Made by a program: the position numbers and the translations under genes
Shown here: positions 833 to 21,195 of the stretch, one piece after another
Numbering within the stretch: position 1 is the first letter of the stretch
How the letters are laid out: each line of letters begins with the position of its first letter
From: a virus
Strand: one strand, 5' to 3'
Length of the DNA stretch: 21,195 nt
Virus record (IMG/VR): IMGVR_UViG_3300017788_001190
Location: 1 to 21,195 of that record
The notes under the pieces: model-generated
What the model was told of the DNA's origin: nothing
What the model saw: only the letters and a program-made list of their open reading frames with translations
Database searches by the model: none

Positions 833-838
833 TATAAT
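833..838 (+). promoter_or_regulatory. -10 hexamer TATAAT, likely leaderless promoter
   Basis: A perfect TATAAT lies in the 16-nt gap between the helicase stop and the next ATG at 845, with exactly 6 nt between the hexamer and the ATG. With the usual -12 to -7 placement, transcription would begin at the A of the start codon. There is no Shine-Dalgarno in the gap and I see no -35 box. The same spacing recurs at 13832 and 14200. Confidence 0.6.
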
Positions 839-844
839 TAGTAC

Positions 845-2031: not shown

Positions 2032-2047
2032 GAAGAAGGCAATTTAT

Positions 2048-2698: not shown

Positions 2699-2704
2699 GA
2701 TAAC

Positions 2705-8048: not shown

Positions 8049-8049
8049 C

Positions 8050-8883
8050 ATGAAGGGTATAGTAAATAAGTTATCAATCAAAAAACTTGAAGAGGTAGAA
8101 AATGAACCAACGTTTGATGATGTTGATTGGCAATCAGAATTTAGTGATGATGGTCCACTTTCTGGTTTAATAGAGGCAATAGAAGAGGGATATCGTATTG
8201 ATAATATTCCAAAGCATATGACAAAGAAAAGCTTTGCTCCCTCTTCATTGGTATGGAATCACGGAATCTGTCCACGCTACTGGTACTTGGCATTTGAGGG
8301 TAATACCTTCTATGAATACAAGACTGGTAAGTCTATTACAAATATGGATAGTGGAACAGACAGACATGCAAGAATACAAAAAGCATTAGAAGATGCGGGC
8401 CTTTTGATTGAGAATGAGAAAAAGACAACCCATGACGATCCTCCAATTTTTGGATATGTAGATAGCTTTATTAATTGGAAAGAGTCTGAATACATAGTAG
8501 AAATAAAGACTTGCAATCAAGAAGCTTTTGATAGACACAAGAAAACTATGACAGCAAGCTCATATCATGTTCTTCAGCTTCTTGTCTACATGAAGATTTA
8601 TAAGAAGAAAAATGGAATCATTTTATATGAAAATAAAAATACCCATGATCTTCTTGTAGTACCTGTAAATATTACACAAAGTCATGTTGAATTTGTTGAC
8701 TATCTATTTGATTGGATGAGGGAAGTTTATGCGGCATGGAAAGATAAGAAGCTTCCAAAGATTCCTTTTAAAAATAATGATGTAAAAGTATGTCAAAACT
8801 GTCCTTTGCAAGAAGCTTGCAAGGCCGCACCTGAAGGCGATATTAAAATTGCCAGAAGAAAGGATGAAAAGGGGCAGTTCTAA
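8050..8883 (+). CDS. Cas4-like PD-(D/E)XK exonuclease with Fe-S cluster
   Basis: 277-residue RecB-family nuclease. Active-site residues appear in order: H106 (DRHARIQ), D138 (GYVDSF), E151-x-K153 (IVEIKT) and Q176-x3-Y180 (QLLVY). One cysteine near the N-terminal part (C74, GICPRYW) and three near the C-terminus (C248, C251, C257 in VCQNCPLQEAC) make the four-cysteine iron-sulphur site of Cas4/AddB proteins. Residues 1-55 are an acidic extension without recognisable fold. The start is ATG 8050, just after the previous stop; an upstream in-frame TTG at 8014 would lie inside the previous gene. No CRISPR array or other cas gene is present, so a role in DNA end-processing for recombination with RecA is more likely than adaptation. 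Confidence 0.82.
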   Translation: MKGIVNKLSIKKLEEVENEPTFDDVDWQSEFSDDGPLSGLIEAIEEGYRIDNIPKHMTKKSFAPSSLVWNHGICPRYWYLAFEGNTFYEYKTGKSITNMDSGTDRHARIQKALEDAGLLIENEKKTTHDDPPIFGYVDSFINWKESEYIVEIKTCNQEAFDRHKKTMTASSYHVLQLLVYMKIYKKKNGIILYENKNTHDLLVVPVNITQSHVEFVDYLFDWMREVYAAWKDKKLPKIPFKNNDVKVCQNCPLQEACKAAPEGDIKIARRKDEKGQF

Positions 8884-9174
8884 ATGGCGTATTGCATGTG
8901 GTGTGATAAAGAATTTGATGCAACGTCATCGAAACAAATTTATTGCAGCATAGAATGTCGTCAAAAAGCTAGCAAAGAAAAGATTGTAGAAAGAAATAGA
9001 ACTGAAAAAATAAAAAATAGAATTGGAAAAGAAAGAAGGTGTGCTGGTGGATGTGAAACTATTCTCTCAATATATAATGATGAGGGAATATGTGAGACGT
9101 GCATTGAGCATAAAAAGAAAATGAATAAGTTTATAAAAGAAATAAAGGGATACTTTGACTACTCCAAAAAATAA
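8884..9174 (+). CDS. Protein with two zinc ribbons
   Basis: 96-residue basic protein with two sets of four cysteines: C4-x2-C7 with C21-x3-C25 (CMWC, YCSIEC) and C53-x3-C57 with C70-x2-C73 (CAGGC, CETC). They are separated by a Lys/Arg-rich linker (30-52) that could be helical. The first set looks like the small YCSxxCR zinc knuckle seen in many nucleic-acid-associated phage proteins. It begins directly after the stop of the Cas4-like gene (TAAATG) and overlaps the RuvC-like gene by 20 nt. Probably a DNA- or RNA-binding accessory protein; the specific role is unknown. Confidence 0.72.
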   Translation: MAYCMWCDKEFDATSSKQIYCSIECRQKASKEKIVERNRTEKIKNRIGKERRCAGGCETILSIYNDEGICETCIEHKKKMNKFIKEIKGYFDYSKK

Positions 9175-9745
9175 AAGACTTGTTGATTTATCAAAACCTT
9201 CATCTATAGTTGCTGTAGATGCATCTACAAATTCTCTTGCATTTTCTTATTTTAAAAATGGTAAACTTATTAAATATGGAAAGATTAGGTTTACTGGCGC
9301 AGATGCTTTATATAAAGCAGGAGATGCTTGCAAAAAATCAATTCAATTTTTTAAGAAAATTCAGGCAGATGCTTTGGTCATGGAGGCTGCAATCTATTCT
9401 AATTCGCCAAAAACGGCAATGCAACTGTCTTTGGTGCAGGGAGCTATAGTGGCGGCAGCACAGGTTGCTGGAATAAAAAGTGTTACAACAATAACTCCAA
9501 TGGAGTGGCAAAACTTTATAGGTACTAGGCTATTGACAGCGGCAGAGAAACAAGATATAGTAAAAAGAAATCCAGGCAAGTCTAACTCCTGGTATAAAAG
9601 TAAAGAAAGAGAAACAAGAAAAAACAAAACAATAGATTCAGTAAACAAAAACTTTCATATCAACATATCAGATGATGATGTTGCAGATGCAATAGGAATC
9701 GGATGGTTTGTAAATGATAGATGGAATATATTTTTCAATGACTAA
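9155..9745 (+). CDS. RuvC-like RNase H-fold nuclease (Holliday junction resolvase-like)
   Basis: 196-residue RuvC-fold protein. The expected acidic residues are all visible: D22 in IVAVDASTNS, E77 in ALVMEAAIY, and a terminal acidic pair D175/D178 in DDDVADAIGIGWF. RuvC enzymes resolve four-way junctions with two metal ions. Phages with such proteins use them to debranch DNA before packaging or to degrade branched intermediates. The TTG start at 9155 follows an AAAGGGA ribosome site. A basic insertion (about 138-162, rich in Lys/Arg) precedes the last motif. It is the second resolvase-type gene in this region after 7451. Confidence 0.8.
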   Translation: MTTPKNKRLVDLSKPSSIVAVDASTNSLAFSYFKNGKLIKYGKIRFTGADALYKAGDACKKSIQFFKKIQADALVMEAAIYSNSPKTAMQLSLVQGAIVAAAQVAGIKSVTTITPMEWQNFIGTRLLTAAEKQDIVKRNPGKSNSWYKSKERETRKNKTIDSVNKNFHINISDDDVADAIGIGWFVNDRWNIFFND

Positions 9746-9905
9746 AAAAGATTTTTATAAAAATAAAAGTTGGATGCACAAGCGTTTTGTACAGGACAAG
9801 TGTACGCCACAAGAAATAGCAGATGAATGTGGAGTTACATTACAAACAATATATTTATACCTAAACAAGTTTGGTCTTAAGATGGGAAGAAAGGGAAGAA
9901 GATGA
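9738..9905 (+). CDS. Small helix-turn-helix protein
   Basis: 55-residue basic protein. Residues from about 22 to 46 (TPQEIADECGVTLQTIYLYL) form a clear helix-turn-helix: a helix with the EIA motif, a turn at CGV, and a recognition helix. The C-terminus is strongly basic (KMGRKGRR). It may be a small DNA-binding regulator or a remnant of an HNH/homing-endonuclease DNA-binding tail. ATG 9738 gives an 8-nt overlap with the RuvC-like gene; an in-frame ATG at 9714 would add eight residues. The stop overlaps the next ATG (ATGA). Confidence 0.72.
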   Translation: MTKKDFYKNKSWMHKRFVQDKCTPQEIADECGVTLQTIYLYLNKFGLKMGRKGRR

Positions 9906-10261
9906 CAGAGGATGAGCATATGATAGCTGCTATGAGTAATTTAATTGATCTTAGCAAGAAAGCTCCAGCAGGTAAAGAAATATTAGTTCAATGCCTAGAA
10001 ATAGCAGCACTTCTTCTTGATAAGAATATTAGCTATGGAAACTCGGCCCTTGATCCAATAAAAGTATTTGCACCTGATGTAGATGCTGGACTACAGATTG
10101 ATATAAAAATTGATGATAAGCTTAGCAGAATAAAAAAAGGATCAGAATTTCCTGGGGATGACACAATTCTTGACTTAACAGGATACCTTGTGCTAAAATT
10201 GATCCACCATAAGAGAGTGCGGCAATTGGGAGGAAACGATGGGAAAACGAAAGAAGTATAA
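9902..10261 (+). CDS. Helical protein resembling nucleotide-modification-associated domain 1 (DUF1599-like)
   Basis: 119-residue alpha-helical protein. The order LLDKNISYGNSALDP (38-52), IDDKLSRIKKG (70-80) and DDTILDLTGYLVL (86-98) resembles the K-x-YG ... K-x-x-R-I ... D-x-x-D-L-x-x-Y pattern of DUF1599/Nmad1 proteins, which are related to MazG-type all-alpha NTP pyrophosphohydrolases. It might therefore act on nucleotides. The fit is by eye and moderate. It overlaps its upstream neighbour by 4 nt and the downstream gene by 23 nt. Confidence 0.5.
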   Translation: MTEDEHMIAAMSNLIDLSKKAPAGKEILVQCLEIAALLLDKNISYGNSALDPIKVFAPDVDAGLQIDIKIDDKLSRIKKGSEFPGDDTILDLTGYLVLKLIHHKRVRQLGGNDGKTKEV

Positions 10262-10535
10262 AGGAATAGATCCTTTTATTCGTGAAGATTCATTTACCAC
10301 TTCAGATGGAAAGATTATATCTAGTGGTGATATTATCAAGATAAGAGGAGTTTGGGGATCTAAATTTAGATTCCAAAATTTTGTAACCAATCCTGAAAAT
10401 GGCATATCATGGATTGATTGCATAGAATTGGAACGTGGCATTGCATGTGGTATGAGATCATTTTATCCAGATCGTGCTAAGCCAATTCCCAAGAGAAGAG
10501 GCAAGCGTGTCAAAAGATCTCGTCAAACACCTTGA
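10239..10535 (+). CDS. Conserved hypothetical basic protein
   Basis: 98-residue protein that I do not assign to a function. A beta-rich core (FTTSDGKIISSGDIIKIRG at 19-37; GSKFRFQNFVTNP at 40-52) looks like a small SH3/KOW-type barrel, followed by ISWIDCIELERG. The C-terminus is a dense basic tail (residues 84-96, KRRGKRVKRSR). Such a tail suggests DNA or RNA contact. A good GGGAGG ribosome site stands 5 nt before the ATG. The last 29 nt overlap the terminase small subunit gene, so the basic tail is dual-coding with the start of that gene. Confidence 0.65.
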   Translation: MGKRKKYKGIDPFIREDSFTTSDGKIISSGDIIKIRGVWGSKFRFQNFVTNPENGISWIDCIELERGIACGMRSFYPDRAKPIPKRRGKRVKRSRQTP

Positions 10536-11022
10536 CGAAATAAATCTTGTAGCATCAGAATATTTAAAGGGCATTGATACTGCTATCATAGCCCAACAAT
10601 TAGACATGCCTCGTACCCGCGTTATGTCCTTGCTAAATGACTGGCGTAAAATGGCGGCAAATAACGAAGCCATTCACGCAAGAGCAAGGGAAGCTTTAGT
10701 TGGAGCAGATCAACATTACTCTGGTCTTATTAAAAAAGCATATGAGGTTATTGATTCAGCTGACGTAAATAACAACCTTGGTGCAAAAACAAATGCCATT
10801 AAACTTATTGCTGACATAGAAGCAAAAAGACTTGATATGCTTCATCGTGCAGGACTACTTGATAATAAAGAAGTTGCTGAAGAACTTGCAGATATGGAAA
10901 GAAAGCATGAAGTTCTTATAAATATTCTTAAAGACATTGCTTCTAATTATCCAGAGATTCGTAATGAAATATTAAGAAGGCTGTCAGAAGTTAGTGGCGG
11001 AGTGATCATAGTTGACAATTGA
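10507..11022 (+). CDS. terS: Probable terminase small subunit
   Basis: 171-residue helical protein directly before the large terminase. An N-terminal helix-turn-helix (about 22-49, GIDTAIIAQQLDMPRTRVMS) is followed by long helices (about 55-150), the usual plan of small terminases: DNA recognition plus an oligomerisation region that forms a ring at the packaging site. The GTG start at 10507 has an AGAAGAGG ribosome site 5 nt upstream and is preferred over the in-frame 10474. It overlaps the large subunit gene by 11 nt. The assignment depends largely on position and the HTH, since small terminases diverge strongly. Confidence 0.66.
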   Translation: MSKDLVKHLDEINLVASEYLKGIDTAIIAQQLDMPRTRVMSLLNDWRKMAANNEAIHARAREALVGADQHYSGLIKKAYEVIDSADVNNNLGAKTNAIKLIADIEAKRLDMLHRAGLLDNKEVAEELADMERKHEVLINILKDIASNYPEIRNEILRRLSEVSGGVIIVDN

Positions 11023-12793
11023 TTTTTCAGATTTCTTTGAAGCACTTGAAGATAATGTATTTGAAGAAGAGCCAGTAGATGTTGTAACATTTGTAACCTC
11101 GTCAGACCACCTTGGTCAACCATACCTTTCTGAATACCAATACACTGTTGTTGAGTGTATGAGTCAGATATATAGGGAAAAAGATTTACAAAAGCTTATG
11201 GGTGAAAAAGAAGGAAGCGAGCATTACAAAAAATATACAAAGGGCGAAGTTATATTACAGCTTGGAAAAGGATCTGGTAAAGATCATACATCTACAGTGG
11301 GTTGTGCATATCTTGTTTATAAACTGCTTTGTCTAAAAGATCCTGCCGCATATTTTGGTAAGCCTCCTGGGGATGCAATAGATATCATTAACGTAGCAAT
11401 TAATGCTCAACAGGCTAAAAATGTTTTCTTCAAAGGTTTTAAAAATAAAATTGATAAGTCCCCATGGTTTGCTGGAAAGTATGATGCCAAGGTAGATAAT
11501 ATTGAATTTGATAAGGCAATTACAGTCTACTCTGGTCATTCAGAAAGAGAAAGTCATGAGGGACTAAACTTGATGCTTGCAGTTCTTGATGAGATATCTG
11601 GATTTGCTCAGGAGTCTGTATCAGGAAATGAGAATGCAAAAACTGGTGATGCTATATATAAAGCTTTCCGTGGTTCCGTTGATTCACGTTTTCCAGACTA
11701 TGGAAAGGTTGCTTTGCTTTCATTCCCAAGATATAAAGGTGACTTTATATCCAAAAGATATGAAGATGTTATTGCTGAAAAAGAAACAATCATTAGGAAA
11801 TATGAATTTACTTTGAACCCCGTTCTTCCAGATGACGATCCTACAAATATATTTGAAATTGAATGGGAAGAAGATCATATTATTTCATATCGCTTCCCTG
11901 GAATTTATGCATTGAAAAGGCCCACTTGGGAAGTTAATCCAACCAGAAGCATTGAAGATTTTAAGATAGCGTTTTACACAGATCCAGCAGATGCAATGAT
12001 GCGTTTTGCATGTATGCCTAGCACATCTTCAGATGCATTTTTTAAATCACGGGATAAGATAGAAAAGTCCTTATCAATTCGCAACCCACTTGATTCAGTT
12101 AGAAGATTTGACCCAGGATTTAGACCTAAAGAAGATACTGCGTATTATGTTCATGCTGACTTAGCACAACGACATGACAAATGTGCGGTAGCAATTAGCC
12201 ATGTAGAAAAATGGGTAGAGGTTCAATCATTTAATGACTATACACAGATAGTTCCTTTTGTTGTAGTAGATGCAATAGCCTGGTGGGAACCAAGGAAAGA
12301 AGGACCAGTAGATCTATCTGAAGTAAAAAATTGGATTATTGATCTTAGAAGAAGTGGATTTAATCTTGGACTTGTTACATTTGACCGTTGGCAGAGTTTT
12401 GATATTCAGCGTGATCTAAAAAGTGTTGGAATCAATACTGAAACTCTTTCTGTTGCAAAGAAACACTATGAAGATCTTGCAATGCTTTTTTATGAAGAAA
12501 GAGTCGTTGCTCCACATATTGATTTACTCCTAGAAGAGTTGCTAGAATTGCGTATTGTGTCAAATAATAAAGTTGATCACCCAAGAAAAAAGAGCAAGGA
12601 CCTGGCAGACGCTATGTGTGGATCTGTCTATAATGCAATTAGCCATGGCAAAAGAGAAGCATTTGGAGAAATTGAAATTCATACTTGGTCATCATTTAAG
12701 TCTGATAGAAACAGAGAAGAAATAGAAGAAAAAGCAAAGCCACAAATGACTGATGATATAAAAGATTATCTGTCAAGTTATAGATTGATATAG
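11012..12793 (+). CDS. terL: Terminase large subunit
   Basis: 593-residue DNA-packaging motor. The N-terminal ATPase shows Walker A LGKGSGKD (84-91) and Walker B LAVLDE (189-194, with D193 and catalytic E194), then a coupling motif region LLSFPR (235-240). The C-terminal RNase H-fold nuclease has Asp residues in YVHADLAQRHD (D383), VVVDAIAWW (D420), VTFDRWQS (D458) and near KSKDLADAM. It translocates and cuts concatemeric DNA at the portal. TTG 11012 is preceded by GGAG 9 nt upstream. Portal and capsid genes do not follow directly; an IMPDH/GMPR-family gene does. Confidence 0.92.
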   Translation: MTIDFSDFFEALEDNVFEEEPVDVVTFVTSSDHLGQPYLSEYQYTVVECMSQIYREKDLQKLMGEKEGSEHYKKYTKGEVILQLGKGSGKDHTSTVGCAYLVYKLLCLKDPAAYFGKPPGDAIDIINVAINAQQAKNVFFKGFKNKIDKSPWFAGKYDAKVDNIEFDKAITVYSGHSERESHEGLNLMLAVLDEISGFAQESVSGNENAKTGDAIYKAFRGSVDSRFPDYGKVALLSFPRYKGDFISKRYEDVIAEKETIIRKYEFTLNPVLPDDDPTNIFEIEWEEDHIISYRFPGIYALKRPTWEVNPTRSIEDFKIAFYTDPADAMMRFACMPSTSSDAFFKSRDKIEKSLSIRNPLDSVRRFDPGFRPKEDTAYYVHADLAQRHDKCAVAISHVEKWVEVQSFNDYTQIVPFVVVDAIAWWEPRKEGPVDLSEVKNWIIDLRRSGFNLGLVTFDRWQSFDIQRDLKSVGINTETLSVAKKHYEDLAMLFYEERVVAPHIDLLLEELLELRIVSNNKVDHPRKKSKDLADAMCGSVYNAISHGKREAFGEIEIHTWSSFKSDRNREEIEEKAKPQMTDDIKDYLSSYRLI

Positions 12794-12800
12794 GAGAAAA

Positions 12801-13823
12801 ATGCAAAGAGTAGGTAAGGCACTTTGTTTCGATGATGTACTTCTAGTACCACAAAAAAGTAGCATAACATCAAGGCATGATGTTGACTTATCTATGTCAA
12901 TCGGATATGGGAAAAGAAAAATAGACCTTGAGCTACCTGTTATTGCCTCTCCTATGGATACAGTTTGTGATATAGAAATGTGTATTGCAATGGCAAATGC
13001 TGGCGGCATTGGAATACTTCACAGATATATGTCTTATCCAGATCAGATATTAAAAGCTCAATCATTGATAGAGCAAAATATTAAATTTGGAGTTGCAATA
13101 GCATCAAACAATGGATATTTAGCTCAGGCAGATCAACTTTATAACATAGGTGTTGGATTCTTTTTGATAGATACAGCAAATGGTCATGGCAACTATGCGG
13201 TAAAAGCTGTTGCACAACTTAGAAATGCATTTAAAGATGCCCACATTATGGCTGGAAATGTTGCAACAAAAGATGGATTTTTAAGATTGGCAGAGGCTGG
13301 TGCAGATTCAGTTCGTGTTGGGATTGGTGGAGGAAGTGCTTGCACAACTAGATTGGTAAGTGGTCATGGCGTTCCCACTCTTCATTCTATTATGGATTGT
13401 GCAGATACTTTTCAGCAATGTTCAATAGTTGCTGATGGTGGAATAAGAACAAGTGGAGATATGGTAAAGTCATTTGCTGCTGGTGCACATGCAGTAATGA
13501 TTGGATCTATGCTTGCGGGTACAGACCAGGCACCTGGAGAAATTCTTACAGATCATAATGGTCGTGAAGTGAAAGCTTTTCGTGGAATGGCTAGTGCAGC
13601 GGCACAAAAAGATGCAAGTGGAAAGGTATCTGTAGCAGAGGGAATATCTACAACCGTATCATATAAGGGATCTGTAGAACACATACTTGATCAAATTCGT
13701 GGTGGATTAGGAAGTGGATGCTCATATACTGGTGTAGATAAACTTCAAGACTTAGAAGAATATGCAGAATATGTAACAGTATCTGGATTAAGTATAAATG
13801 AATCCGTTCCTCATGCACTATAA
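12801..13823 (+). CDS. IMP dehydrogenase / GMP reductase family protein (no CBS domains)
   Basis: 340-residue TIM-barrel enzyme of purine interconversion. Family marks: [11 protein letters not shown] (10-20), SPMDTV (50-55), the catalytic cysteine loop [11 protein letters not shown] with C181, DGGIRTSGD (212-220), and [13 protein letters not shown]. The CBS pair usually inserted in IMP dehydrogenase is absent. The segment after FRGMAS is short and lacks the Arg-Tyr dyad of the IMPDH flap, which resembles GMP reductase, whereas the C-terminus VSGLSINES is IMPDH-like. Either guanine nucleotide supply (IMP to XMP) or GMP recycling to IMP is possible. A GGAG site 5 nt before the ATG gives ordinary translation. 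It sits directly behind the terminase. Confidence 0.85.
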
Positions 13824-13831
13824 ATAAAGGT

Positions 13832-13837
13832 TAAAAT
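13832..13837 (+). promoter_or_regulatory. -10 hexamer TAAAAT, likely leaderless promoter
   Basis: TAAAAT lies in the 20-nt gap after the IMPDH/GMPR-family gene, 6 nt before ATG 13844. It fits the TANNNT -10 consensus, and the spacing places +1 on the start codon. An AAAGG at 13827-13831 is 12 nt from the ATG, too far to be a good ribosome site, and would lie upstream of the predicted transcript start. Confidence 0.5.
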
Positions 13838-13843
13838 AGTATT

Positions 13844-14194
13844 ATGGATGACAAAGAAGATAAAGATGTTATCAAGTTTTTAGTTGACATGGGAATATTA
13901 AAAGATCTTGGATACAATGAAGAGCTTGGAGAGAATCTTTATTATATTGATTCAAAAGCAGATGAAACATTTCCACAATTAAAACAAGAACAAATGAAGA
14001 GTTTAAATCAAAGCGTATTTGATTTGTGGGAATTAGAAATGCTTGATGTAACTTTTAATAATGATGGTGAACCGCTCATTGGATTAAATAAAAATAGTTT
14101 AGATAAAGAAAAAATTGCTGCTATTAAGGATGAAGAATTAAAAAGGCAGCATATAATGATTGTTGCTGTATTTGATGAATACTTTAATAGATAG
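13844..14194 (+). CDS. Hypothetical acidic protein
   Basis: 116-residue acidic protein, not recognised. The N-terminus is highly charged (DDKEDKD) and two helical stretches follow: about 7-18 (DVIKFLVDMGIL) and 46-66 (QLKQEQMKSLNQSVFDLWELEM). The middle carries a short beta-like segment (LDVTFNNDGEPLIGL) and the C-terminus is helical. It has no cysteines or membrane segment. It is one of three genes with a -10 hexamer 6 nt before the ATG and no close Shine-Dalgarno. A small head-assembly or regulatory role can be imagined from position but is not supported by any motif. Confidence 0.68.
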   Translation: MDDKEDKDVIKFLVDMGILKDLGYNEELGENLYYIDSKADETFPQLKQEQMKSLNQSVFDLWELEMLDVTFNNDGEPLIGLNKNSLDKEKIAAIKDEELKRQHIMIVAVFDEYFNR

Positions 14195-14199
14195 AGTGG

Positions 14200-14205
14200 T
14201 ATAAT
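14200..14205 (+). promoter_or_regulatory. Extended -10 promoter TGGTATAAT, likely leaderless
   Basis: TGGTATAAT (14197-14205) is a perfect extended -10 element (TGnTATAAT) in the 17-nt gap before ATG 14212. Six nt separate TATAAT from the ATG, so the transcript should begin at or next to the start codon. No Shine-Dalgarno is present in the gap. Confidence 0.7.
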
Positions 14206-14211
14206 TTATTT

Positions 14212-15306
14212 ATGCCCTGGGAAATCAGACGTAACTATGGAGGCTGTTCAGGATACGCTGTAGTGAAGCTTCCTGATGGATCAGTTAGTGGATGCCATAC
14301 AACAAGAGCGTCTGCAAGAGCACAGCTAGGTGCCCTGTATGCATCTGAGCCAGAGGCTGCACAGAAAGAAACAGTTACAAATCAAATTACTCCAAACAAA
14401 TACCCACAATATATTAGACCAAAAAAGAGAAAGGTAAAAAAAGACATGGATCTTTATGATATGTTAAATCCAGAAGAGAAGGCGTATCATGATGCCCTTG
14501 TAGAAATAGTACAAGAATTTGGTTACTTTGATCAAGAAGCTTCTGGCGTATGGGTTGGATATGAATCAGCATCAGAAAATGAAGATGCTGTAATTGGTGT
14601 AAAGTGTGGGAATTGTTCTTTTCATGTGGAACAAGAAGATGGAAATATTGCATGTAAACTAGTCTCATTTCTTGTAGAAGAAAATGCAAAATGTAGACTT
14701 GCTGCAATTCCAGATGGACTTGTAAATACAAACAATTATGAGGAGAATGATATGGAAGACTTTATTGATAACATGATGGAAGATATGGGCAAAGCAGATT
14801 CAGTCCGTGTTGGTCAGATGGTTTCTTGGAATTCCTCTGGCGGAAGAGCTACTGGAAAAGTTATTAGGGTCATTAGAAATGGTAAATATAATGTTCCAAA
14901 CTCAGAGTTTACAATTACTGGAACGCCAGATAATCCAGCAGTAGCAATTAGAATTTATAGAGATGGAAAGCCAACAGATACAATTGTTGGACACAAAATG
15001 GACACATTAAGAACAGTAGGCAAGGCAATGAATCAGGATATTGAAGAGACAAAGAAAATTCTAGAAGAGCTTGAAAAGGGATATAAGAAAGATAAGATGA
15101 AGGCCATGAATGAAGATGATGAGGATATGGAAGAAGAAATGAAAACAAAAGGGTATAAAGATAAGAAAAATAAATCCATTGATTCTGATTCTGCTGTACA
15201 GCTAGAAGTTCCTAAAAATCTTTCAGATATTTTTTCCAATATGCCAAAAAGAGCAAAAAGAGTTAACAAGTCAGTCAACACAAATACAAATTTGTATAAG
15301 GGGTAG
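14212..15306 (+). CDS. Multidomain phage protein with Cys cluster and DUF2945/Tudor-like domain
   Basis: 364-residue modular protein. Residues 1-46 (MPWEIRRNYGGCSGYAVVKL ... SARAQLGALYASE) match a short module that recurs at the N-termini of actinophage proteins. Residues 129-161 hold a four-cysteine cluster (C132-x2-C135, C148, C161) like those in some phage head-associated proteins. Residues 196-270 (VRVGQMVSWNSSGGRATGKV ... GHKMDTLRTV) resemble the DUF2945 'hypervirulence-associated' Tudor-like fold. Residues 275-325 are a highly charged coiled-coil-like stretch, and the tail is basic. The probable leaderless start is at 14212. A strong internal ribosome site and ATG at 14752 may give a second, shorter product. 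Role unknown; a virion or prohead function is suggested only by domain company. Confidence 0.72.
   Translation: MPWEIRRNYGGCSGYAVVKLPDGSVSGCHTTRASARAQLGALYASEPEAAQKETVTNQITPNKYPQYIRPKKRKVKKDMDLYDMLNPEEKAYHDALVEIVQEFGYFDQEASGVWVGYESASENEDAVIGVKCGNCSFHVEQEDGNIACKLVSFLVEENAKCRLAAIPDGLVNTNNYEENDMEDFIDNMMEDMGKADSVRVGQMVSWNSSGGRATGKVIRVIRNGKYNVPNSEFTITGTPDNPAVAIRIYRDGKPTDTIVGHKMDTLRTVGKAMNQDIEETKKILEELEKGYKKDKMKAMNEDDEDMEEEMKTKGYKDKKNKSIDSDSAVQLEVPKNLSDIFSNMPKRAKRVNKSVNTNTNLYKG
14741..14754 (+). promoter_or_regulatory. Internal ribosome site and in-frame start (ATG 14752)
   Basis: AGGAG at 14741-14745 stands 6 nt before ATG 14752, which is codon 181 of the surrounding gene. Initiation here would make a 184-residue protein containing only the Tudor-like domain, charged coil and basic tail, while the full-length product comes from a transcript with no Shine-Dalgarno. 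Nested in-frame starts are known in phage protease/scaffold genes. Confidence 0.45.
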
Positions 15307-15308
15307 TT

Positions 15309-15686
15309 ATGGAACTTAAAAAAGAAGACATGTTCTCCCCCACCGCTGGAATGAAAGCTGCTGCTCGTAGGGCTTTGAAGTGGAAAGAAGAAGGTAAGGC
15401 AACGGGTGCAGGAACTCCAGTAGGTTGGGGAAGGGCATCAGATATAGTTGCTGGAAGGCAAATGTCTCTTTCCGTTGTAAGAAGAATGTATTCTTTCTTC
15501 TCACGTCATGAGGTTGACAAAAAGGGAAAAGACTTCTATAATACTTCTAATCCATCAAATGGTCGCATTATGTGGGACGCATGGGGTGGGGACGCAGGAT
15601 TTGCATGGTCAAGAAAGATTGCAAATGCAAATGCAAAAAAAGATATATGGTTCGATTCGCCCTTTTCTATTAGAAAAGCTGACTAA
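15309..15686 (+). CDS. Conserved phage protein of unknown function (possible head/protease-associated domain)
   Basis: 125-residue protein. Its core reads FSPTAGMKAAARRALKWKEE, GRASDIVAGRQMSLSVVRRM, FFSRHEVDKKGKDF and SNGRIMWDAWGGDAGFAWS. That pattern (Ala/Arg helix, 'ARDIxxGxxLSxxTVxRMxxFFxRHExDKKG', 'GxIxWxxWGGDxGxxWA') is one I recognise as recurring in tailed phages, alone or fused to capsid, portal or protease polypeptides; its function is not established. The basic helix 15-30 could contact DNA. The start is 2 nt after the previous stop, so it is translationally linked to the Tudor-like protein. Confidence 0.72.
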   Translation: MELKKEDMFSPTAGMKAAARRALKWKEEGKATGAGTPVGWGRASDIVAGRQMSLSVVRRMYSFFSRHEVDKKGKDFYNTSNPSNGRIMWDAWGGDAGFAWSRKIANANAKKDIWFDSPFSIRKAD

Positions 15687-15691
15687 TCTCT

Positions 15692-15699
15692 AAGGAGAT
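15692..15699 (+). promoter_or_regulatory. Shine-Dalgarno AAGGAGAT serving two overlapping starts
   Basis: AAGGAG (15692-15697) lies 5 nt before ATG 15703 and 9 nt before ATG 15707, which open different reading frames. Either start is compatible with this ribosome site. Confidence 0.55.
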
Positions 15700-15702
15700 G
15701 TA

Positions 15703-15909
15703 ATGAATGAGTCCAACGAGGCTGTTTTACAGACTTTGGCTGAGTATTATCGCAACAAATGTAATAAACTTGAGTATGATTTTGTTTTCTATCAAGCACA
15801 ATCACAAAGAACTGTCAATCAACTTAGGTCAAGAATTGATGAGTTATCCGTTAATAAAGAATTTGGAAATGATACCAGAAAAAAGGATGACTCAGTTGGA
15901 AAAGATTAG
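15703..15909 (+). CDS. Small hydrophilic coiled-coil-like protein
   Basis: 68-residue protein, not assigned. Residues 6-48 have a regular heptad-like helical pattern (LQTLAEYYRNKCNKLEYDF ... TVNQLRSRIDEL), and the last 20 residues are charged and probably disordered. It resembles small proteins widespread in actinophages but without known role. A strong AAGGAG site sits 5 nt before the ATG. Its whole length overlaps another open frame (from ATG 15707), whose downstream part certainly encodes the next gene. Confidence 0.68.
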   Translation: MNESNEAVLQTLAEYYRNKCNKLEYDFVFYQAQSQRTVNQLRSRIDELSVNKEFGNDTRKKDDSVGKD

Positions 15910-16099
15910 AGAAAAGAATACAATACGGGTAGCTATTGTTGGTGCTAAAGCGTATTGGGTTCATGAAAATATATTTTATGAAAGTGATATTGTTGATGGA
16001 CATATAGATGATTCTGCTGCCCGTCCAATAAATGCTCATGATCTTTCAAAGAAGGAACTAGATAGGCTCCTTAATATACTAGACAAAATTCAAGGGTAG
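15887..16099 (+). CDS. Small 'YW-domain' protein (soluble copy)
   Basis: 70-residue protein starting at ATG 15887, 23 nt inside the previous gene. TTG 15896 is an alternative, and the same frame is open back to ATG 15707 (130 residues). The conserved part (about 11-67) contains KAYWVHENIFYESDI and HDLSKKELDRLLNIL. The same layout recurs in the next gene: K-x-YW, six residues, Y-x2-DI, then an acidic loop and an L-S-x2-E helix, so the two are probably paralogues. This copy from 15887 has no membrane segment; from 15707 it would gain a hydrophobic N-terminus. Function unknown. Confidence 0.62.
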   Translation: MTQLEKIREKNTIRVAIVGAKAYWVHENIFYESDIVDGHIDDSAARPINAHDLSKKELDRLLNILDKIQG

Positions 16100-16104
16100 T
16101 TAAA

Positions 16105-16404
16105 ATGTCTAATCAAATGTTTTTTATTTGGGTGTGTATCGCATTGACTCAAGTTACCCTTTTTACAATATATATGATCAAAATGAACAAAACGGAAATT
16201 ATAGAAAAAAAGGTTGACATAATTCCTATTTGTAACTATAATGGTAAAACATATTGGCTAGAAGGATCTAATCTATACAGAGAAGATATTGGAAAGGCTA
16301 GTATAGAAGTAGAGAAGGCAGAAAAGATAGATCAATTAAATCCAAAGGATCTATCTGTTTCTGAAGTAATCTTTATAGTAGAAACGATAGGGGCAAACAA
16401 ATGA
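16105..16404 (+). CDS. Membrane-anchored 'YW-domain' protein
   Basis: 99-residue protein with an N-terminal transmembrane helix (about 5-25, MFFIWVCIALTQVTLFTIYM) followed by a charged linker and a soluble domain. The soluble part (KTYWLEGSNLYREDI, then KDLSVSEVIFIVETI) mirrors the preceding small protein. The positive residues after the helix (KMNK) suggest the soluble domain is cytoplasmic. It lies 5 nt after the previous stop and overlaps the next gene by 4 nt. It could anchor or antagonise its soluble paralogue; no catalytic motif is visible. Confidence 0.68.
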   Translation: MSNQMFFIWVCIALTQVTLFTIYMIKMNKTEIIEKKVDIIPICNYNGKTYWLEGSNLYREDIGKASIEVEKAEKIDQLNPKDLSVSEVIFIVETIGANK

Positions 16405-16748
16405 TTATAGCGGTGCAAGGAACAAAGTCTTTTGAAGATTATGAAACCTTTATGCGTGCTATGGGTGTTGCATTATCACAACCCAATGATGAAAGTATTA
16501 TAGAGGTGTGGTCTGCTGGACCACACAATGTTAACAACTATACTGCTGCATTTTGTAATTCTGCAGAAAATTATCTTAAGCAAAAGGGATATAAAGTTTT
16601 GTTTAAGAAGCTACCTGCAAGCTATATTCAAGAAAATATTTCTTATGTATCTTACTTTGCTTATTTTAGTAAGAAAAATGAAAAGGCTTCACCGCTTGTT
16701 GCAACAGCAGAACTGCAAGACATAGAAGTTGGAATATTTAGATCATAA
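16401..16748 (+). CDS. SLOG-like (DUF2493/YspA-type) nucleotide-binding protein
   Basis: 115-residue Rossmann-like protein. The N-terminus MIIAVQGTKSFEDYETFMRA matches the opening of small SLOG/DUF2493 proteins (strand, G-[ST]-[RK]-[ST]-F-x-D-Y, helix). A second strand with EVWSAGPHNVNNYTAAF (35-51) corresponds to the region that in that family reads VVSGGAxGAD. A helix and strand follow (NYLKQKGYKVLFKKL). SLOG domains bind or cleave nucleotide derivatives and recur in signalling and conflict systems. The glycine-rich loop is weaker here than in canonical members, so ligand binding is uncertain. Junctions are ATGA upstream and a one-base overlap (TAATG) with the deaminase-like gene. Confidence 0.5.
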   Translation: MIIAVQGTKSFEDYETFMRAMGVALSQPNDESIIEVWSAGPHNVNNYTAAFCNSAENYLKQKGYKVLFKKLPASYIQENISYVSYFAYFSKKNEKASPLVATAELQDIEVGIFRS

Positions 16749-17116
16749 TGCTAAGCAATAAAGATGTTTCTTTTTTAAATATAGCAAGATATTTTGCTGA
16801 AAAGTCTGAAGAAAAAAAGAAACACGGAGCCGTTGTTGTAAAATCTGGTAGAGTTGTTGGTGCTGGATTTAATAAGTTTAAGAATCATCCAGATGTTATA
16901 CCGACAGACTTGATTAAGATTCATTGTTCTAGACACGCAGAAGAGGTTGCTATTCGTGAAGCAGGATCAAATGCCAAAGGAGCAATTCTTTATGTTGCAA
17001 GAGTAAATAAAAGGGGAATAGACAGAAATAGCAAGCCTTGCAGAGAATGTAGCAAGCTTATAGAAAAATCTGGAATAAAGAAAGTAATCTATACCGTGGA
17101 AGAAATATGTCACTAA
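16748..17116 (+). CDS. Cytidine/deoxycytidylate deaminase-family enzyme
   Basis: 122-residue zinc deaminase fold. The zinc-binding and catalytic motif is complete: H63-A-E65 (SRHAEEVAIR) and P97-C98-x2-C101 (KPCRECSKLI). The N-terminal strand pattern KHGAVVVKSGRVVGAGFNK is typical of the family. Possible reactions are dCMP to dUMP, supplying dTMP synthesis, or deamination of a free or nucleic-acid base; it is shorter than classical T4 dCMP deaminase. No thymidylate synthase is visible in the window. It shares one base with the upstream stop and overlaps the membrane protein gene by 10 nt. Confidence 0.8.
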   Translation: MLSNKDVSFLNIARYFAEKSEEKKKHGAVVVKSGRVVGAGFNKFKNHPDVIPTDLIKIHCSRHAEEVAIREAGSNAKGAILYVARVNKRGIDRNSKPCRECSKLIEKSGIKKVIYTVEEICH

Positions 17117-17376
17117 ATGATTGGTCTTTAATAATATTTGGAACTACCCTTGCCTTATACATGGCAATATATTTTGCAATGTTCTCTAAACCACACTTAG
17201 TATCATTCTTAGTTGTATTTATTTTATGGTCAATAAATACTGGAGTAAAGCTAGTCTATGGATTAGTAACAGATCAGATAGGATTTGTTTTATTATTCTT
17301 TTTAGACTTAACGATGATATTCCTTGTATTTATCATAGCGGGAAGGTATGTTAATGATAATTCAGACGATGAATGA
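17107..17376 (+). CDS. Small three-helix membrane protein
   Basis: 89-residue hydrophobic protein with three probable transmembrane helices (about 7-26, 30-50 and 56-79) and an acidic C-terminal tail (NDNSDDE). It has no Cys or catalytic motif. A holin-like function can be considered because small three-helix proteins are common holins, but no endolysin gene is nearby, so this is not claimed. It overlaps the deaminase-like gene by 10 nt and the following gene by 23 nt, making it part of the same translational unit. Confidence 0.65.
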   Translation: MSLNDWSLIIFGTTLALYMAIYFAMFSKPHLVSFLVVFILWSINTGVKLVYGLVTDQIGFVLLFFLDLTMIFLVFIIAGRYVNDNSDDE

Positions 17377-17566
17377 AGCAGAGAAATTTGTTAAAGATCA
17401 CCCCAATTTCTCCTGGGATGGATGGGACATTGTTTATCTTATACAGGATGACTATGCTGAATATCTTTCTGTTGGAGTTTATAATAAAGAAGAAAATAAA
17501 TGGTATAAAAAATCTAGATATCCATATGATAATGGATGGAATATCCCAGACCCGGTGATAAGATGA
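17354..17566 (+). CDS. Conserved hypothetical actinophage-type protein
   Basis: 70-residue protein with conserved aromatic and charged features: HPNFSWDGWDIVYLIQDDY (18-36), an acidic/aromatic middle, KWYKKSRYPYDNGW, and an end in IPDPVIR. This 'LSWDGW ... W..PD.[FY][VI]R' layout is one I associate with small proteins in actinophage genomes; its function is unknown. Three in-frame ATGs exist (17348, 17354, 17369). 17354 is preferred because GGAAGG at 17341-17346 stands 7 nt upstream. The stop overlaps the WhiB start (ATGA). Confidence 0.65.
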   Translation: MIIQTMNEAEKFVKDHPNFSWDGWDIVYLIQDDYAEYLSVGVYNKEENKWYKKSRYPYDNGWNIPDPVIR

Positions 17567-17850
17567 GTTCCAAAGACTGGAAAGAACAAGCTTTGTGTTT
17601 AAATATGGACACAAACTTATTCTTTGACAAATATGAAGAAGATGAAGAGCTAAGGGTTGCAGTAGATCAACTATGTATTAAATGCCCCGTTCAAAGAGAG
17701 TGTCTTGCTTCAGCAGTTACTAGGCAGGAATGGGGAGTGTGGGGCGGGGTATATTTTGAAAAAGGTAAAATTTCAAAAGAATTTAATAATCATAAAGACA
17801 AAGGAAAGTGGTTTAGTATCTGGTCATCATTGACAATGGAAACATCATGA
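17563..17850 (+). CDS. whiB: WhiB-like [4Fe-4S] regulatory protein
   Basis: 95-residue WhiB-family protein, a group confined to Actinobacteria and their phages. The four cluster cysteines C12, C38, C41 and C47 have the usual C-xn-C-x2-C-x5-C arrangement (ALCLNM; CIKCPVQREC), followed by the diagnostic turn GVWGG (58-62) and a basic segment (EKGKISKEFNNHKDKGK). WhiB proteins bind sigma factor and DNA in a redox- or NO-sensitive way. The phage homologue TM4 WhiB (WhiBTM4) acts on host WhiB2 function. ATG 17563 is chosen for its 4-nt overlap with the upstream stop; an upstream in-frame ATG (17536) would extend further into the previous gene. Confidence 0.9.
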   Translation: MSSKDWKEQALCLNMDTNLFFDKYEEDEELRVAVDQLCIKCPVQRECLASAVTRQEWGVWGGVYFEKGKISKEFNNHKDKGKWFSIWSSLTMETS

Positions 17851-18143
17851 TATACACTAGGGAAATGCAAAGCGTGGTTAAGTCTATTCGGGCACCGCAT
17901 GAATTTGTTGTAGACATAGTTGAGTATGATATGAAAGGGCATCAATTTATAGGACTAAGATTCTATGAAAGCCAGTGGGAATATTATAATGAAAATGAAA
18001 GACTTAATTGTGTTCTTTACTTAGATAAGGTAAAGACAATAATAGAAAGGTTCGGTGTCAGGGTCACCCTTGAGCCTGTCATTGATACTGGCAATAATCT
18101 GCCAACAAAGAAAAAGATACGAGGAAAAGGAATAAATAAATGA
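17847..18143 (+). CDS. Conserved hypothetical protein
   Basis: 98-residue soluble protein that I do not recognise. The N-terminal part suggests a helix then beta strands (FVVDIVEYDMKGHQFIGLRFY, 19-39), the middle LNCVLYLDKVKTIIERFGV a strand-helix, and the last 12 residues are a basic tail (KKKIRGKGINK). It lies between WhiB and Ssb with 4-nt overlaps on both sides (ATGA), so it is co-translated with them. No metal site or membrane segment is seen. Confidence 0.68.
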   Translation: MIYTREMQSVVKSIRAPHEFVVDIVEYDMKGHQFIGLRFYESQWEYYNENERLNCVLYLDKVKTIIERFGVRVTLEPVIDTGNNLPTKKKIRGKGINK

Positions 18144-18514
18144 GTATGATTACGGTAATTGGGAATCTTGTTGCAGATCCAGAGTCAAAGGTTGCTGCTG
18201 GTCACAACCTTGCTCGCTTGCGAATTGCATCAAATGAAAGAGTAAAGGACGCATCTGGAGAATGGAAGGATGGAGATACCACATATGTAGATGTTACATG
18301 CTGGCGTAAGCTTGCTGATGGTGCTTCATCCCTTAAGAAGGGGCAGCGAGTTGTTGTCTATGGAAAGCTTAAGGGCCGTTCATTTCAGCGCAAGGATGGA
18401 ACAAATGGCTATGGTTATGAAATTGAAGCTACAGATGTTGGCACATCAATCATTAGCTATGGCTCATCTCCACAGAGAAAGGTTGAGCCAGACCTAGAAA
18501 ATCCCTGGAGTTAG
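18140..18514 (+). CDS. ssb: Single-stranded DNA-binding protein, bacterial Ssb type
   Basis: 124-residue OB-fold Ssb. Typical sequence marks: MITVIGNLVADPE at the start, RLRIASNERVKD, YVDVTCWRKLADGASSLKKG, RVVVYGKLKGRSFQRKDG and YGYEIEATDVG. It coats ssDNA as a tetramer in replication and repair. The tail is short and ends DLENPWS rather than the usual DDDIPF, so its partner-binding tip may be altered. It is the last gene before the intrinsic terminator at 18521. Its codon use looks less AT-biased than the neighbouring small genes. The genome also carries a gp32-like ssDNA-binding gene at 2048. Confidence 0.93.
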   Translation: MSMITVIGNLVADPESKVAAGHNLARLRIASNERVKDASGEWKDGDTTYVDVTCWRKLADGASSLKKGQRVVVYGKLKGRSFQRKDGTNGYGYEIEATDVGTSIISYGSSPQRKVEPDLENPWS

Positions 18515-18520
18515 TAAGAG

Positions 18521-18548
18521 GCCACCCGAAAGGGTGGCTTTCTTATTT
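18521..18548 (+). terminator. Rho-independent terminator after ssb
   Basis: GCCACCC (18521-18527), a GAAA tetraloop and GGGTGGC (18532-18538) form a perfect 7-bp GC-rich stem, extendable by G-U and A-U pairs, followed by TTTCTTATTT. It begins 6 nt after the ssb stop and is the only strong terminator I see in the forward strand of the window. Confidence 0.9.
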
Positions 18549-18549
18549 C

Positions 18550-18558
18550 TGATATAAT
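18550..18558 (+). promoter_or_regulatory. Extended -10 promoter TGATATAAT
   Basis: TGATATAAT (TGn-TATAAT) directly follows the terminator and stands 20 nt before ATG 18579. A transcript starting near 18565 would carry a short leader with the ribosome site AAAGGAG (18567-18573), so this promoter is not of the leaderless type. Confidence 0.65.
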
Positions 18559-18578
18559 CATATGTCAAAGGAGATAAA

Positions 18579-18854
18579 ATGGATATAGAGTCTATTGCTA
18601 AAATATTAGAAGAATTTTCCAGGGATTTTACAATTGGAGAAATTGACAGGGATTTTTTTAGTGACTTCGTAATCTATAATGATCTTGGCTTGCCACTCGC
18701 TCAGGCTGTGGCATATGAGCTAGCAACGCCAACAAAAGAGGGAGAGTCTTTGATAATAGAAACCTGGAATAATCTTTGTGAGATTCTTGACGCTGATCCA
18801 CTAGAGGATTATGATGATCTTGATGATCTATTTGATAGTATAGAAGAAGACTAA
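18579..18854 (+). CDS. Hypothetical acidic protein
   Basis: 91-residue, strongly acidic protein whose last 30 residues are dominated by Asp and Glu (EDYDDLDDLFDSIEED). The middle has a helical, conserved-looking stretch (GLPLAQAVAYELATPTKEGE and IIETWNNLCEIL, about 46-78). I know no function for it. Very acidic small phage proteins are sometimes DNA mimics or inhibitors of host DNA-binding proteins; that is only a possibility. It has its own promoter and an AAAGGAG ribosome site 5 nt before the ATG, separate from the long upstream operon. Its stop overlaps the stop of the convergent gene. Confidence 0.7.
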   Translation: MDIESIAKILEEFSRDFTIGEIDRDFFSDFVIYNDLGLPLAQAVAYELATPTKEGESLIIETWNNLCEILDADPLEDYDDLDDLFDSIEED

Positions 18855-19546
18855 GAGCCGTATACTTCTGTTAAAAATATATTGATTTCTTTTTCTAAAT
18901 CATATGACTTCATAAATTCATAAGTAATATTTTTATCATACCCAAGAGTTTTTATGTCAGATATTATATTTGCGTATTGCCTATATAGGCTTACTGGCTC
19001 AAGATCTGGCGTAGAAATATGAACATGATAAATATAATCTTTGTGTTTTTCAAATTCTGCTGTAGGATTTAGCCCCTCTAAATAAAGATTTCCACTATCA
19101 ATCATTGTTTTAATATTATAAAAATATCCAATGTCGTCAGCTATCTCGTCTACCGTATAATAATATTCTCCACCATACTTCCTTGCATTTGGTTCCACAC
19201 AAACAATGCAATCTCTTTTATTTATATAATCATCAATTTGTAATAAAAGCTCAAGCATATGCTTTTTACTTCCTACCCTCATAGATGGAGATCCAAGTGT
19301 TATGATTTTTATATTATTGTTTAAACAATAGTCAACCACCTTACATAAGTGATCGTAACATCTGGGGTCAAGGAATGAAGGTATCCCAGATCCAAAAAAT
19401 ATTCCTTGAACCGCGTATACAGATTTTGATAGCGGAACTTTTGCATAAGCAGACTCAATATAATCAAATCCTAAATTTAATGCCATTTCTGTATTATTTT
19501 TTACAGTCTCTGGCTGCCAACCAATATTGCTTATTCCTACTTGCAT
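18851..19546 (-). CDS. Xylose isomerase-like TIM-barrel protein (sugar epimerase/isomerase)
   Basis: 231-residue TIM barrel of the xylose isomerase/AP endonuclease IV-like superfamily. The metal-ligand quartet is visible: E118 (CVEPN), D150 (MIDSGN), H176 (YHVHIS) and E210 (ITYEFM). These folds isomerise or epimerise sugars, or act on DNA in the endonuclease IV branch. The company of a glycosyltransferase-like and an epimerase gene favours a sugar role. At 231 residues it is shorter than typical (about 260-290). An AGGA ribosome site precedes ATG 19546, which lies 10 nt inside the epimerase gene. Its TAG overlaps the TAA of the forward gene by 4 nt. Confidence 0.75.
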   Translation of the reverse strand: MQVGISNIGWQPETVKNNTEMALNLGFDYIESAYAKVPLSKSVYAVQGIFFGSGIPSFLDPRCYDHLCKVVDYCLNNNIKIITLGSPSMRVGSKKHMLELLLQIDDYINKRDCIVCVEPNARKYGGEYYYTVDEIADDIGYFYNIKTMIDSGNLYLEGLNPTAEFEKHKDYIYHVHISTPDLEPVSLYRQYANIISDIKTLGYDKNITYEFMKSYDLEKEINIFLTEVYGS

Positions 19547-20283
19547 AAAAATTTTCCTATATCTTTTAATGATGTTTCTGCATCATACCAATATCTATTT
19601 GTTGTTGTATTAGTTTGATAATTATACGCCATAAGCTTTCCTTCATATCCAATAGGTTTATCACAGAATCTTTCTATTATTGTTCTTGTGCTAACTGGTT
19701 CGGGGAATAAATTGAATATTATTCTATCATCATAATTGGTTGTTTCAATATCTAATGTAATAAGATTCATGTTATACCACTGATAATAAGAGTTTATGTT
19801 TATTTGATCTAAATTGTTTGAGTTTTTAATGTCAAATAGTATATTCTTTTTTAAGTGTGGACCATATAATCCTGGCAATCGTAATATCTTTATAGAATTG
19901 TATTGAAGATTTTGAGTTATTAAGTCTTCAAAGATGTATCTATTGTGTCCATATCCTAAGCTTTTAAATACAGGAGTAACTGTTTCATCTGCAAACAATT
20001 CAGTATCTTGATACACATCAATTGTAGAAAATAAAAATACTTTATTATATTTTTTATTCTTTATTTTAGTAAATATGCTTATTGCATTTTCTAAATCAAG
20101 TCCAGGATTTTTATTAATCATCCATTTTGTTGCGGGTAAACAACAAAGAAAGAGGTCGCAATTGTCTGGGGCAGAAGATATATCATCAAGGTTGGTTGAA
20201 TTATATTTAAAATCAAAGTCTATAAACCTTTGTAAATTCATTCCAACAAAACCAGTTGATCCAATTAAAATTTTATTGACCAC
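19537..20283 (-). CDS. NAD-dependent epimerase/dehydratase-like (extended SDR) protein
   Basis: 248-residue Rossmann protein. The N-terminal dinucleotide motif is G8-x2-G11-x2-G14 (KILIGSTGFVGMNL). A strand ending FLFSTIDVYQD (83-93) holds the SDR Ser/Thr, and LRLPGLYGP (134-142) is the substrate-side loop. The catalytic Y-x3-K appears as YGHNR (Y111, R115), with Arg in place of Lys, in a YGHNRYIFEDL context. A reductase, epimerase or dehydratase acting on a nucleotide sugar is likely. GTG 20283 places the Rossmann strand right at the N-terminus; TTG 20295 would add four residues. It overlaps the upstream glycosyltransferase-like gene by 11 nt. Confidence 0.75.
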   Translation of the reverse strand: MVNKILIGSTGFVGMNLQRFIDFDFKYNSTNLDDISSAPDNCDLFLCCLPATKWMINKNPGLDLENAISIFTKIKNKKYNKVFLFSTIDVYQDTELFADETVTPVFKSLGYGHNRYIFEDLITQNLQYNSIKILRLPGLYGPHLKKNILFDIKNSNNLDQININSYYQWYNMNLITLDIETTNYDDRIIFNLFPEPVSTRTIIERFCDKPIGYEGKLMAYNYQTNTTTNRYWYDAETSLKDIGKFLCK

Positions 20284-21175
20284 TATTCCATCCAAAGGTA
20301 ATATCTTTTGCTTTCAATAACATGTAATCTTTTAGTAAAAATGAAAGCAATCTTTCTGGGTACGAACAAAAATAAAAAAACATTGTTTCCCAGTGAATTT
20401 TTTCATCTAATTCTAAAACAAAAGCCTCCCCTCTTTTTGTGTGTGGAGTTTTTAAATATTCAAGCATTGATAAATTATGATCTTCAAACTGTTTACATAG
20501 TTCATCATATTTATAAAAAAGAGAACAATATTCTTTCATTGCACTCATGCTTCCATATGCATACATATCGCATACAGGATTATCATGCTCAAATATGTGT
20601 ACTTTTCTAAATCCCATTTCATAACTTGATTGACATTTTTTACAATAGCTTGGTACAGGATGTGCATGAAAACTACCATCTGGAAAATAAATAATTTTAT
20701 TTTGATTTATTTCTTCAATTAAACTTGGATCTAAGTTAAATTTTAAAATTGGATTTTCAAATCTAACTTTTATTACCAAGTCATAGCTTTCACCTGTTTC
20801 TTTGACATACTCTTCCATTAGCTCATATGCCTGGGAAATCGCATAAAGATTAGACTTGCTAAATACTTCTGGGTATCTCATCCAATTAAAATATTTTATT
20901 TTAAGATTATCATTATCTTTTATAAAACTCTTATTGTTAGCAATGGTGTATTTTTTTATTCCGTGTATATTTCTAATACAAGTTTCAATTGCCTCCCTGT
21001 CAGTATTAGATCTTAAATTTGTTTCAGTTGTTCTATATCCCCATTGATCCCAAGAAAAAACAAAAACATCTATGTTGTGTGTTTTATATTTTTTTAAAGA
21101 ATGAACTATGTCCACAGTTCTTGGATGCCCAGAAACAAGTAGGGCAACTTTAGGAATTGGATTAATTTTGATCAC
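20273..21175 (-). CDS. Glycosyltransferase-like protein
   Basis: 300-residue protein opening with PKVALLVSGHPRTV (8-21), then IDVFVFSWDQWG (36-47) and YDLVIKVRFEN. This is the layout of a group of viral and bacterial putative glycosyltransferases with a GT-A-like fold, where the [DY]-D-[LI]-V-[IV]-[KR]-x-R-[FY]-[DE] strand stands near the nucleotide-sugar site. A CxxC (SYCKKCQSSYE) occurs in the middle. It probably transfers a sugar to a virion or host-surface acceptor. GTG 21175 is the only start after an in-frame stop immediately upstream (21179-21181), and its ribosome site is weak (AAAAG). It is the first visible gene of the reverse-strand cassette; its promoter is likely outside the window. 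Confidence 0.66.
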   Translation of the reverse strand: MIKINPIPKVALLVSGHPRTVDIVHSLKKYKTHNIDVFVFSWDQWGYRTTETNLRSNTDREAIETCIRNIHGIKKYTIANNKSFIKDNDNLKIKYFNWMRYPEVFSKSNLYAISQAYELMEEYVKETGESYDLVIKVRFENPILKFNLDPSLIEEINQNKIIYFPDGSFHAHPVPSYCKKCQSSYEMGFRKVHIFEHDNPVCDMYAYGSMSAMKEYCSLFYKYDELCKQFEDHNLSMLEYLKTPHTKRGEAFVLELDEKIHWETMFFYFCSYPERLLSFLLKDYMLLKAKDITFGWNSGQ

Positions 21176-21195
21176 CTTTTATTAATTGTGTAATA

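Follow-up and report, generated by a model that had tools for sequence, protein, structure and literature searches.

Gene layout and genomic context

The question raised by this locus is what three inverted genes at the end of a viral sequence make, and whether they are cargo that passes from phage to phage. The window, by which we mean the whole stretch of DNA that was analysed, comprises 21,195 bases (positions 1 to 21,195 of the IMG/VR record IMGVR_UViG_3300017788_001190) and is probably a fragment. An earlier note on this DNA had described an overlapping minus-strand trio on an otherwise single-strand genome, and this description holds. The cassette consists of three minus-strand ORFs, each overlapping its neighbour, in the order GT (glycosyltransferase; 20273-21175), SDR (a protein with the NAD-dependent epimerase/reductase fold; 19537-20283) and TIM (a xylose isomerase-like TIM barrel; 18851-19546). 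That all three have homologues elsewhere among viral contigs shows that they are not chance ORFs, and all 29 genes taken as real within positions 1-18854 lie on the plus strand. The SDR/TIM overlap is 10 nt; that between GT and SDR is 11 nt if the SDR begins at the GTG at 20283, which fits the start of its homologues better, or 23 nt if it begins at the TTG at 20295. The TIM stop overlaps by 4 bp that of a convergent plus-strand ORF (18579-18854), the last gene before the cassette, which is conserved beside ssb in three related contigs (L002, L006 and L009) and which, with whiB and the single-stranded DNA-binding protein gene itself (ssb; 18140-18514, plus strand; PF00436), marks the edge of a hotspot. 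Twenty bases separate the GT start from the end of the window.

The plus-strand genes recognised by Pfam specify DnaB, primase, DNA polymerase III alpha, RecA, IMP dehydrogenase, a dCMP-deaminase-like protein, WhiB and SSB, and a terminase was recognised with PHROGs. Matches to this terminase occur in 370 of 50,697 phage records (E ≤1e-3), none above 60% identity, with Streptomyces and Gordonia phages the commonest. Since these are the main matches and WhiB is present, the gene content suggests an actinobacterial host; whiB is called a key indicator of actinophages in PMC10202952. The IMP dehydrogenase gene (PF00478) follows the terminase in the window (12801-13823) and lies elsewhere and on the opposite strand in L024 (20695-21693), so this gene also moves.

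The three proteins of the cassette

That all three genes specify sugar enzymes, as had been claimed, is supported by fold or family: by structure prediction for the SDR and GT, and by Pfam for the TIM protein. The 231-amino acid TIM protein scores 31.8 bits against PF01261 (AP_endonuc_2), above the gathering cut-off of 31.1, and, searched against the PDB, a profile built from 38 relatives picks out ketose 3-epimerases and 3-keto-D-glucoside 4-epimerase at E values of 3e-13 to 9e-11. The metal ligands, E118, D150, H176 and E210, are all kept in the window; they are conserved in 59, 57, 56 and 56 of 60 viral rows, respectively, and in 20, 20, 19 and 20 of 20 bacterial rows, counts in which the window likewise stands twice. 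Ketose 3-epimerases, IolO and 3-keto-D-glucoside 4-epimerase have the fold and these ligands in common with TIM, whereas the match to the IolO model itself (E 2.6e-5, 23.7 bits) falls far beneath the equivalog cut-off of 300. A search with the single TIM sequence found no viral relative; alignment-based searches did find relatives. The window protein is about 20 residues shorter than most of these, the missing stretch coming after the first strands. The TIM protein of L002 has the same short form, and those of L068 and L070 are also short.

For the SDR the AF2 model has a pLDDT of 94.8, and its best Foldseek matches (E 3.6e-9, probability 1.00) are all of the extended SDR type, among them RmlD, GalE and the Campylobacter CDP-glucitol reductase. 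The GxxGxxG motif is retained with its three glycines invariant, as expected of a Rossmann fold. Against the Epimerase family PF01370 the window protein reaches 14.9 bits, the cut-off being 20.9, and nine of 44 relatives match that family at E up to 0.01. The catalytic YxxxK reads YGxxR, the tyrosine and arginine being present in 83 of 83 aligned rows (a set restricted to rows within the length limits, in which the window stands twice, once as L001). Because of this YGxxR in place of YxxxK, the protein is best described as a putative atypical enzyme of the SDR fold and not a standard extended-SDR member; with the usual catalytic lysine absent its activity is not certain. In four contigs (L112, L113, L114:7998-9596 and L117:6837-8435) the SDR lies inside an ORF of about twice the length, apparently fused to another domain.

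The GT has a predicted GT-A fold and belongs to no named family: Pfam and NCBIfam returned none, and among the PHROGs it matches the unnamed phrog_13607 (E 2.6e-10). A scan of four proteins of L004 against the PHROGs gave no match. The AF2 model (pLDDT 82.1) retrieves only GT-A enzymes in the top 50 Foldseek and the top 50 VIA rows, the best VIA match having Z 12.1 and an rmsd of 4.2 over 191 aligned residues; the Foldseek TM-scores are only 0.3-0.4. The sequence profile gave nothing meaningful against the PDB, unlike the predicted fold. At the position of the DXD motif the window reads R-F-E-N-P (E-N-P), a degenerate form. Strict D-x-D occurs in four of 12 rows (L004, L082, L063 and L093); D-x-E or D-x-N is found in five, and the others have E-x-D or D-x-K. 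Some GT-A enzymes work without DXD, and the activity of the window GT is, with this motif degenerate, not certain.

A four-gene viral module

The earlier note had seen a compact, self-contained unit of three genes. The conserved unit is larger: it is a virus-borne module FAD-[GT]-SDR-TIM, headed by a DAO-type FAD oxidoreductase, of which the cassette in the window, with GT, SDR and TIM adjacent in the same order, is the right-hand part. Using the GT as bait in viral contigs, we found 26 relatives in 25 distinct loci; SDR and TIM lie beside the GT in all 25, and the FAD gene lies just upstream in 24, the remaining contig (L156) starting 20 bases before the GT. With the SDR as bait, among the best 80 of 177 viral relatives, TIM adjoins in 75 and FAD in 71, and the coordinates show that all but one (L118) of the loci without one or the other run off the end of the stretch examined. 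With the FAD protein as bait, 67 of 80 loci (from 341 relatives) have FAD, SDR and TIM, and a further 12 have SDR or TIM, giving 79; the last, L184, ends within a FAD-GT fusion. These three sets have contigs in common and are not independent.

The distances of the partners from one another are also correlated, with r values of 0.85 for SDR-TIM (44 loci), 0.86 for SDR-FAD (40), 0.92 for TIM-FAD (40) and 0.83 for SDR-GT (12). For each pair, 0 of 2000 permutations gave a value as high, in a test that keeps relatedness, so that some of the correlation is due to two large clades. Four duplicate contigs (L057, L072, L056 and L010) were left out of the correlations and of the neighbour-family count, and rows beyond the length limits were also left out of the former.

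The missing member probably lies just beyond position 21195, cut off by the end of the contig. This prediction follows from the constancy of the module and from the last bases of the window: an open frame on the minus strand (21172-21195, seven codons only) ends in TGA and overlaps the GT start as GTGA, which allows the 4-bp overlap seen at many FAD-GT junctions in relatives, and it may be the 3' end of the FAD oxidoreductase gene. The sequence profile of the FAD protein matches only dinucleotide-binding stretches. Nor is the module self-contained in its chemistry, for no sugar-activating gene (nucleotidyltransferase) was recognised as recurring beside it among the neighbour families present in at least five viral loci. 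On the whole the module stands on far firmer ground than its chemistry.

Beside complete loci such as L004, where all four genes are present, several variants were noted. In L005 (8912-10504) and also in L184 a single open frame, which runs off the contig, joins the FAD oxidoreductase to the GT, and by eye the L005 locus also has an HldE-like nucleotidyltransferase and a cupin isomerase-like ORF. In L073 (9876-10886) and L164 (6759-7769) SDR and TIM are separated by the gene for an exostosin-like GT47. Close to the module, 34 of 80 loci have a member of a protein family of about 220 residues with no Pfam or PHROG match (e.g., L089:6350-7012).

Exchangeable cargo at a glycan-gene hotspot

As the description of it as acquired cargo had implied, the cassette is cargo open to exchange, and it sits at a hotspot for glycan genes in a virus resembling an actinophage. 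When the locus was compared in relatives, presence and absence were found to vary: SDR and FAD are absent from 17 of 18 records of related phages, many of which are fragments. Beyond the whiB/ssb edge, four of the six relatives examined carry other glycan genes. These are an epimerase and a C-methyltransferase in L017, a GlcNAc transferase, a second GT and a methyltransferase in L050 and (by sight) L023, and a GT4 with a weak Stealth match in L024; L009 has a weak epimerase match only and L037 (by sight) no evident glycan gene. The nearest relative, L002, has the module at the same inverted place, with the FAD gene above the SDR in place of the GT, which is absent.

At the DNA level the SDR-TIM region of the window is 83% identical to that of L002, whereas the longer of the backbone matches give 67-73% and two short ones, of 68 and 107 bases, reach 83-85%. 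At four-fold sites 82 of 117 positions are identical in SDR and TIM, and nine backbone genes agree at 232 of 494 such positions (P 8e-6). Since the synonymous sites of SDR and TIM are closer to L002 than those of the backbone, the common ancestor of the module is younger than that of the backbone, which fits exchange between phages.

Base composition does not add to this. The cassette is AT-rich, as claimed (GC 0.289, against 0.331-0.395 in 661 windows of the same length within 1-18850), but this cannot be used as a mark of acquisition, since the SDR exceeds its own locus in AT content in each of the 56 other viral loci compared. There the GC difference averages -0.061 and SDR GC tracks locus GC with r=0.97 (loci not dereplicated, and those with less than 3 kb on a side left out). 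Low GC was therefore dismissed as an indicator of acquisition; the AT shift is a trait of the family more than a mark of recent arrival.

Distribution among viruses and bacteria

Phages of unrelated types carry the module, and it also turns up in glycan loci of bacteria. The window and L002 carry a terminase like that of Streptomyces phages; one large clade of carriers has it next to a portal gene (PF06381) and a terminase of another family; and other carriers reach 318 kb, some with PhoH adjoining the module. Of 50,697 records of isolated or deposited phages, one contained a relative, and this record is an unannotated scaffold from human faeces.

On the bacterial side 20 loci were collected (five plasmids, the faecal scaffold and 14 genome contigs; rows beyond the length limits left out). 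SDR and TIM are together in all 20 and FAD is present in 18, L145 ending early and L154 showing none. The triad lies here among glycan genes, its neighbours including GT2 and SMR-type or GtrA proteins. In a tree from which the duplicate L001 was removed, the viral SDRs (62 rows) separate from 19 of the 20 bacterial-labelled rows with 100/100 support, the retrieval patterns, which were built from viral rows, favouring viral-like sequences. The exception, L142 (Dolichospermum sp. contig JAKOGY010000249.1, from a cyanobacterial assembly), has the module beside portal-like and terminase-like ORFs, and because of these genes it looks like phage or prophage sequence.

Proposed pathway and its alternatives

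The product of the module is probably an unusual sugar that becomes attached to the surface of the cell or to the virion. In the reading that we favour, with moderate confidence, a module at a hotspot would oxidise, isomerise and reduce a sugar, which a GT would then transfer to a host surface glycan or to the virion. The starting material is likely a host NDP-sugar, since no sugar-activating gene was recognised as recurring in the neighbour families. The FAD and SDR enzymes would oxidise and reduce the sugar, one yielding a keto sugar and the other reducing it; the metal-dependent TIM protein would isomerise or epimerise the keto intermediate at the centre adjoining the carbonyl; and the GT, or another GT nearby, would transfer the finished sugar. 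Its target would be a host surface glycan, with a block to superinfection, or the virion. The intact metal site of TIM and the action of its nearest solved relatives on keto sugars support such a pathway. The earlier proposal that the genes build a sugar and attach it thus stands as the best reading; of the targets it had named (virion, phage DNA or host surface), DNA is favoured by nothing seen here.

Were the sugar placed on virion proteins and not on the host, which we regard as rather unlikely, the position of the module beside portal and terminase, in the late structural block of the one large carrier clade, would be explained; in the window it adjoins ssb and whiB rather than structural genes, and no virion gene beyond the terminase was seen in the fragment. 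It seems improbable that the sugar is handled in the gtr manner, that is, linked to undecaprenyl phosphate, flipped, and then added on the outer side of the membrane to change the host-surface glycan. Several bacterial triads do adjoin a GT2, a small flippase-like protein (GtrA, PF04138, in L138; SMR/EamA in L136 and L153) and a large protein with no Pfam match, but no GtrA, SMR or DPM-like GT2 is present among the ORFs of the window, which ends at 21195, and none was recognised among those neighbour families of at least five viral loci that were scanned, which are only some of them.

Hypermodification of phage DNA, which has been proposed for freshwater actinophages by the authors of PMC10202952, was also considered. 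Phage glycosyltransferases can act on DNA, but no hydroxymethylase or other base-priming enzyme was recognised in the window, and no support for DNA modification was found there. A sugar isomerase and a DAO oxidoreductase are not known to belong to DNA hypermodification pathways, and we consider such a role very improbable. An origin of the genes in the present host, with a role in host metabolism rather than in a phage module, we find scarcely credible: bacterial homologues of the triad exist, but the viral SDRs part from the bacterial-labelled ones as described above, the sole exception itself looking like phage, and no actinobacterial homologue is present among the 14 genome matches.

Returning to the oxidise-isomerise-reduce pathway, a bolder version of it is possible, although we lean against it. 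The window would then carry a virus-specific lineage of a dedicated pathway built around the YxxxR SDR, making a sugar undescribed in phages, spreading as a unit between unrelated phages and marking host or virion; being common in uncultured viruses and nearly absent from isolates, its chemistry would have been missed. Phage glycan genes are usually reported singly; a fixed set of enzymes in unrelated phages points to one defined product, which would make the chemistry tractable from four purified proteins. The module would also serve as a marker for surface-remodelling phages, and the hotspot as a place where relatives swap sugar genes.

Relation to known systems

Clusters of polysaccharide genes in cyanophages and jumbo phages such as P-SSM2 contain epimerases, cupin isomerases, PfkB kinases, nucleotidyltransferases and GTs (passages of PMC7824862). 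As here, phage-borne NAD-dependent epimerases accompany glycosyltransferases, the clusters are polymorphic between relatives, and a change in the host surface is proposed; whereas cupin isomerases, PfkB kinases and nucleotidyltransferases are named there, the core of the present module is FAD-SDR-TIM, and the terms "tim barrel" and "oxidoreductase" are absent from the main text of PMC7824862. The gtr system of serotype conversion (GtrA/GtrB/GtrC) is likewise a glycan change carried by phages, and bacterial triads can adjoin GtrA and a GT2, but it has the flippase GtrA and a membrane-bound GtrC beside GtrB, none of which is among the ORFs of the window up to its end at 21195. In the bacterial triads, e.g., those of Psychrobacter pA22P4, Roseobacter litoralis pROLI127, a Sagittula plasmid and Alteromonas confluentis, SDR, TIM and FAD stand side by side as in the viruses; they differ in having a separate SDR lineage and, often, a flippase and extra GTs. 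In mainly open literature, and with synonyms outside the scope of the search, no paper was found that contained all terms of the FAD-SDR-TIM combination. Phage glycan clusters are thus already known, and by its gene content the FAD-SDR-TIM set appears to be a new form among them. A terminase relative in an isolate, Streptomyces phage Gilson (NC_048742.1, 57638-59362; L261), carries, close to its terminase, genes for two glycosyltransferases and one resembling heptose kinase/adenylyltransferase.
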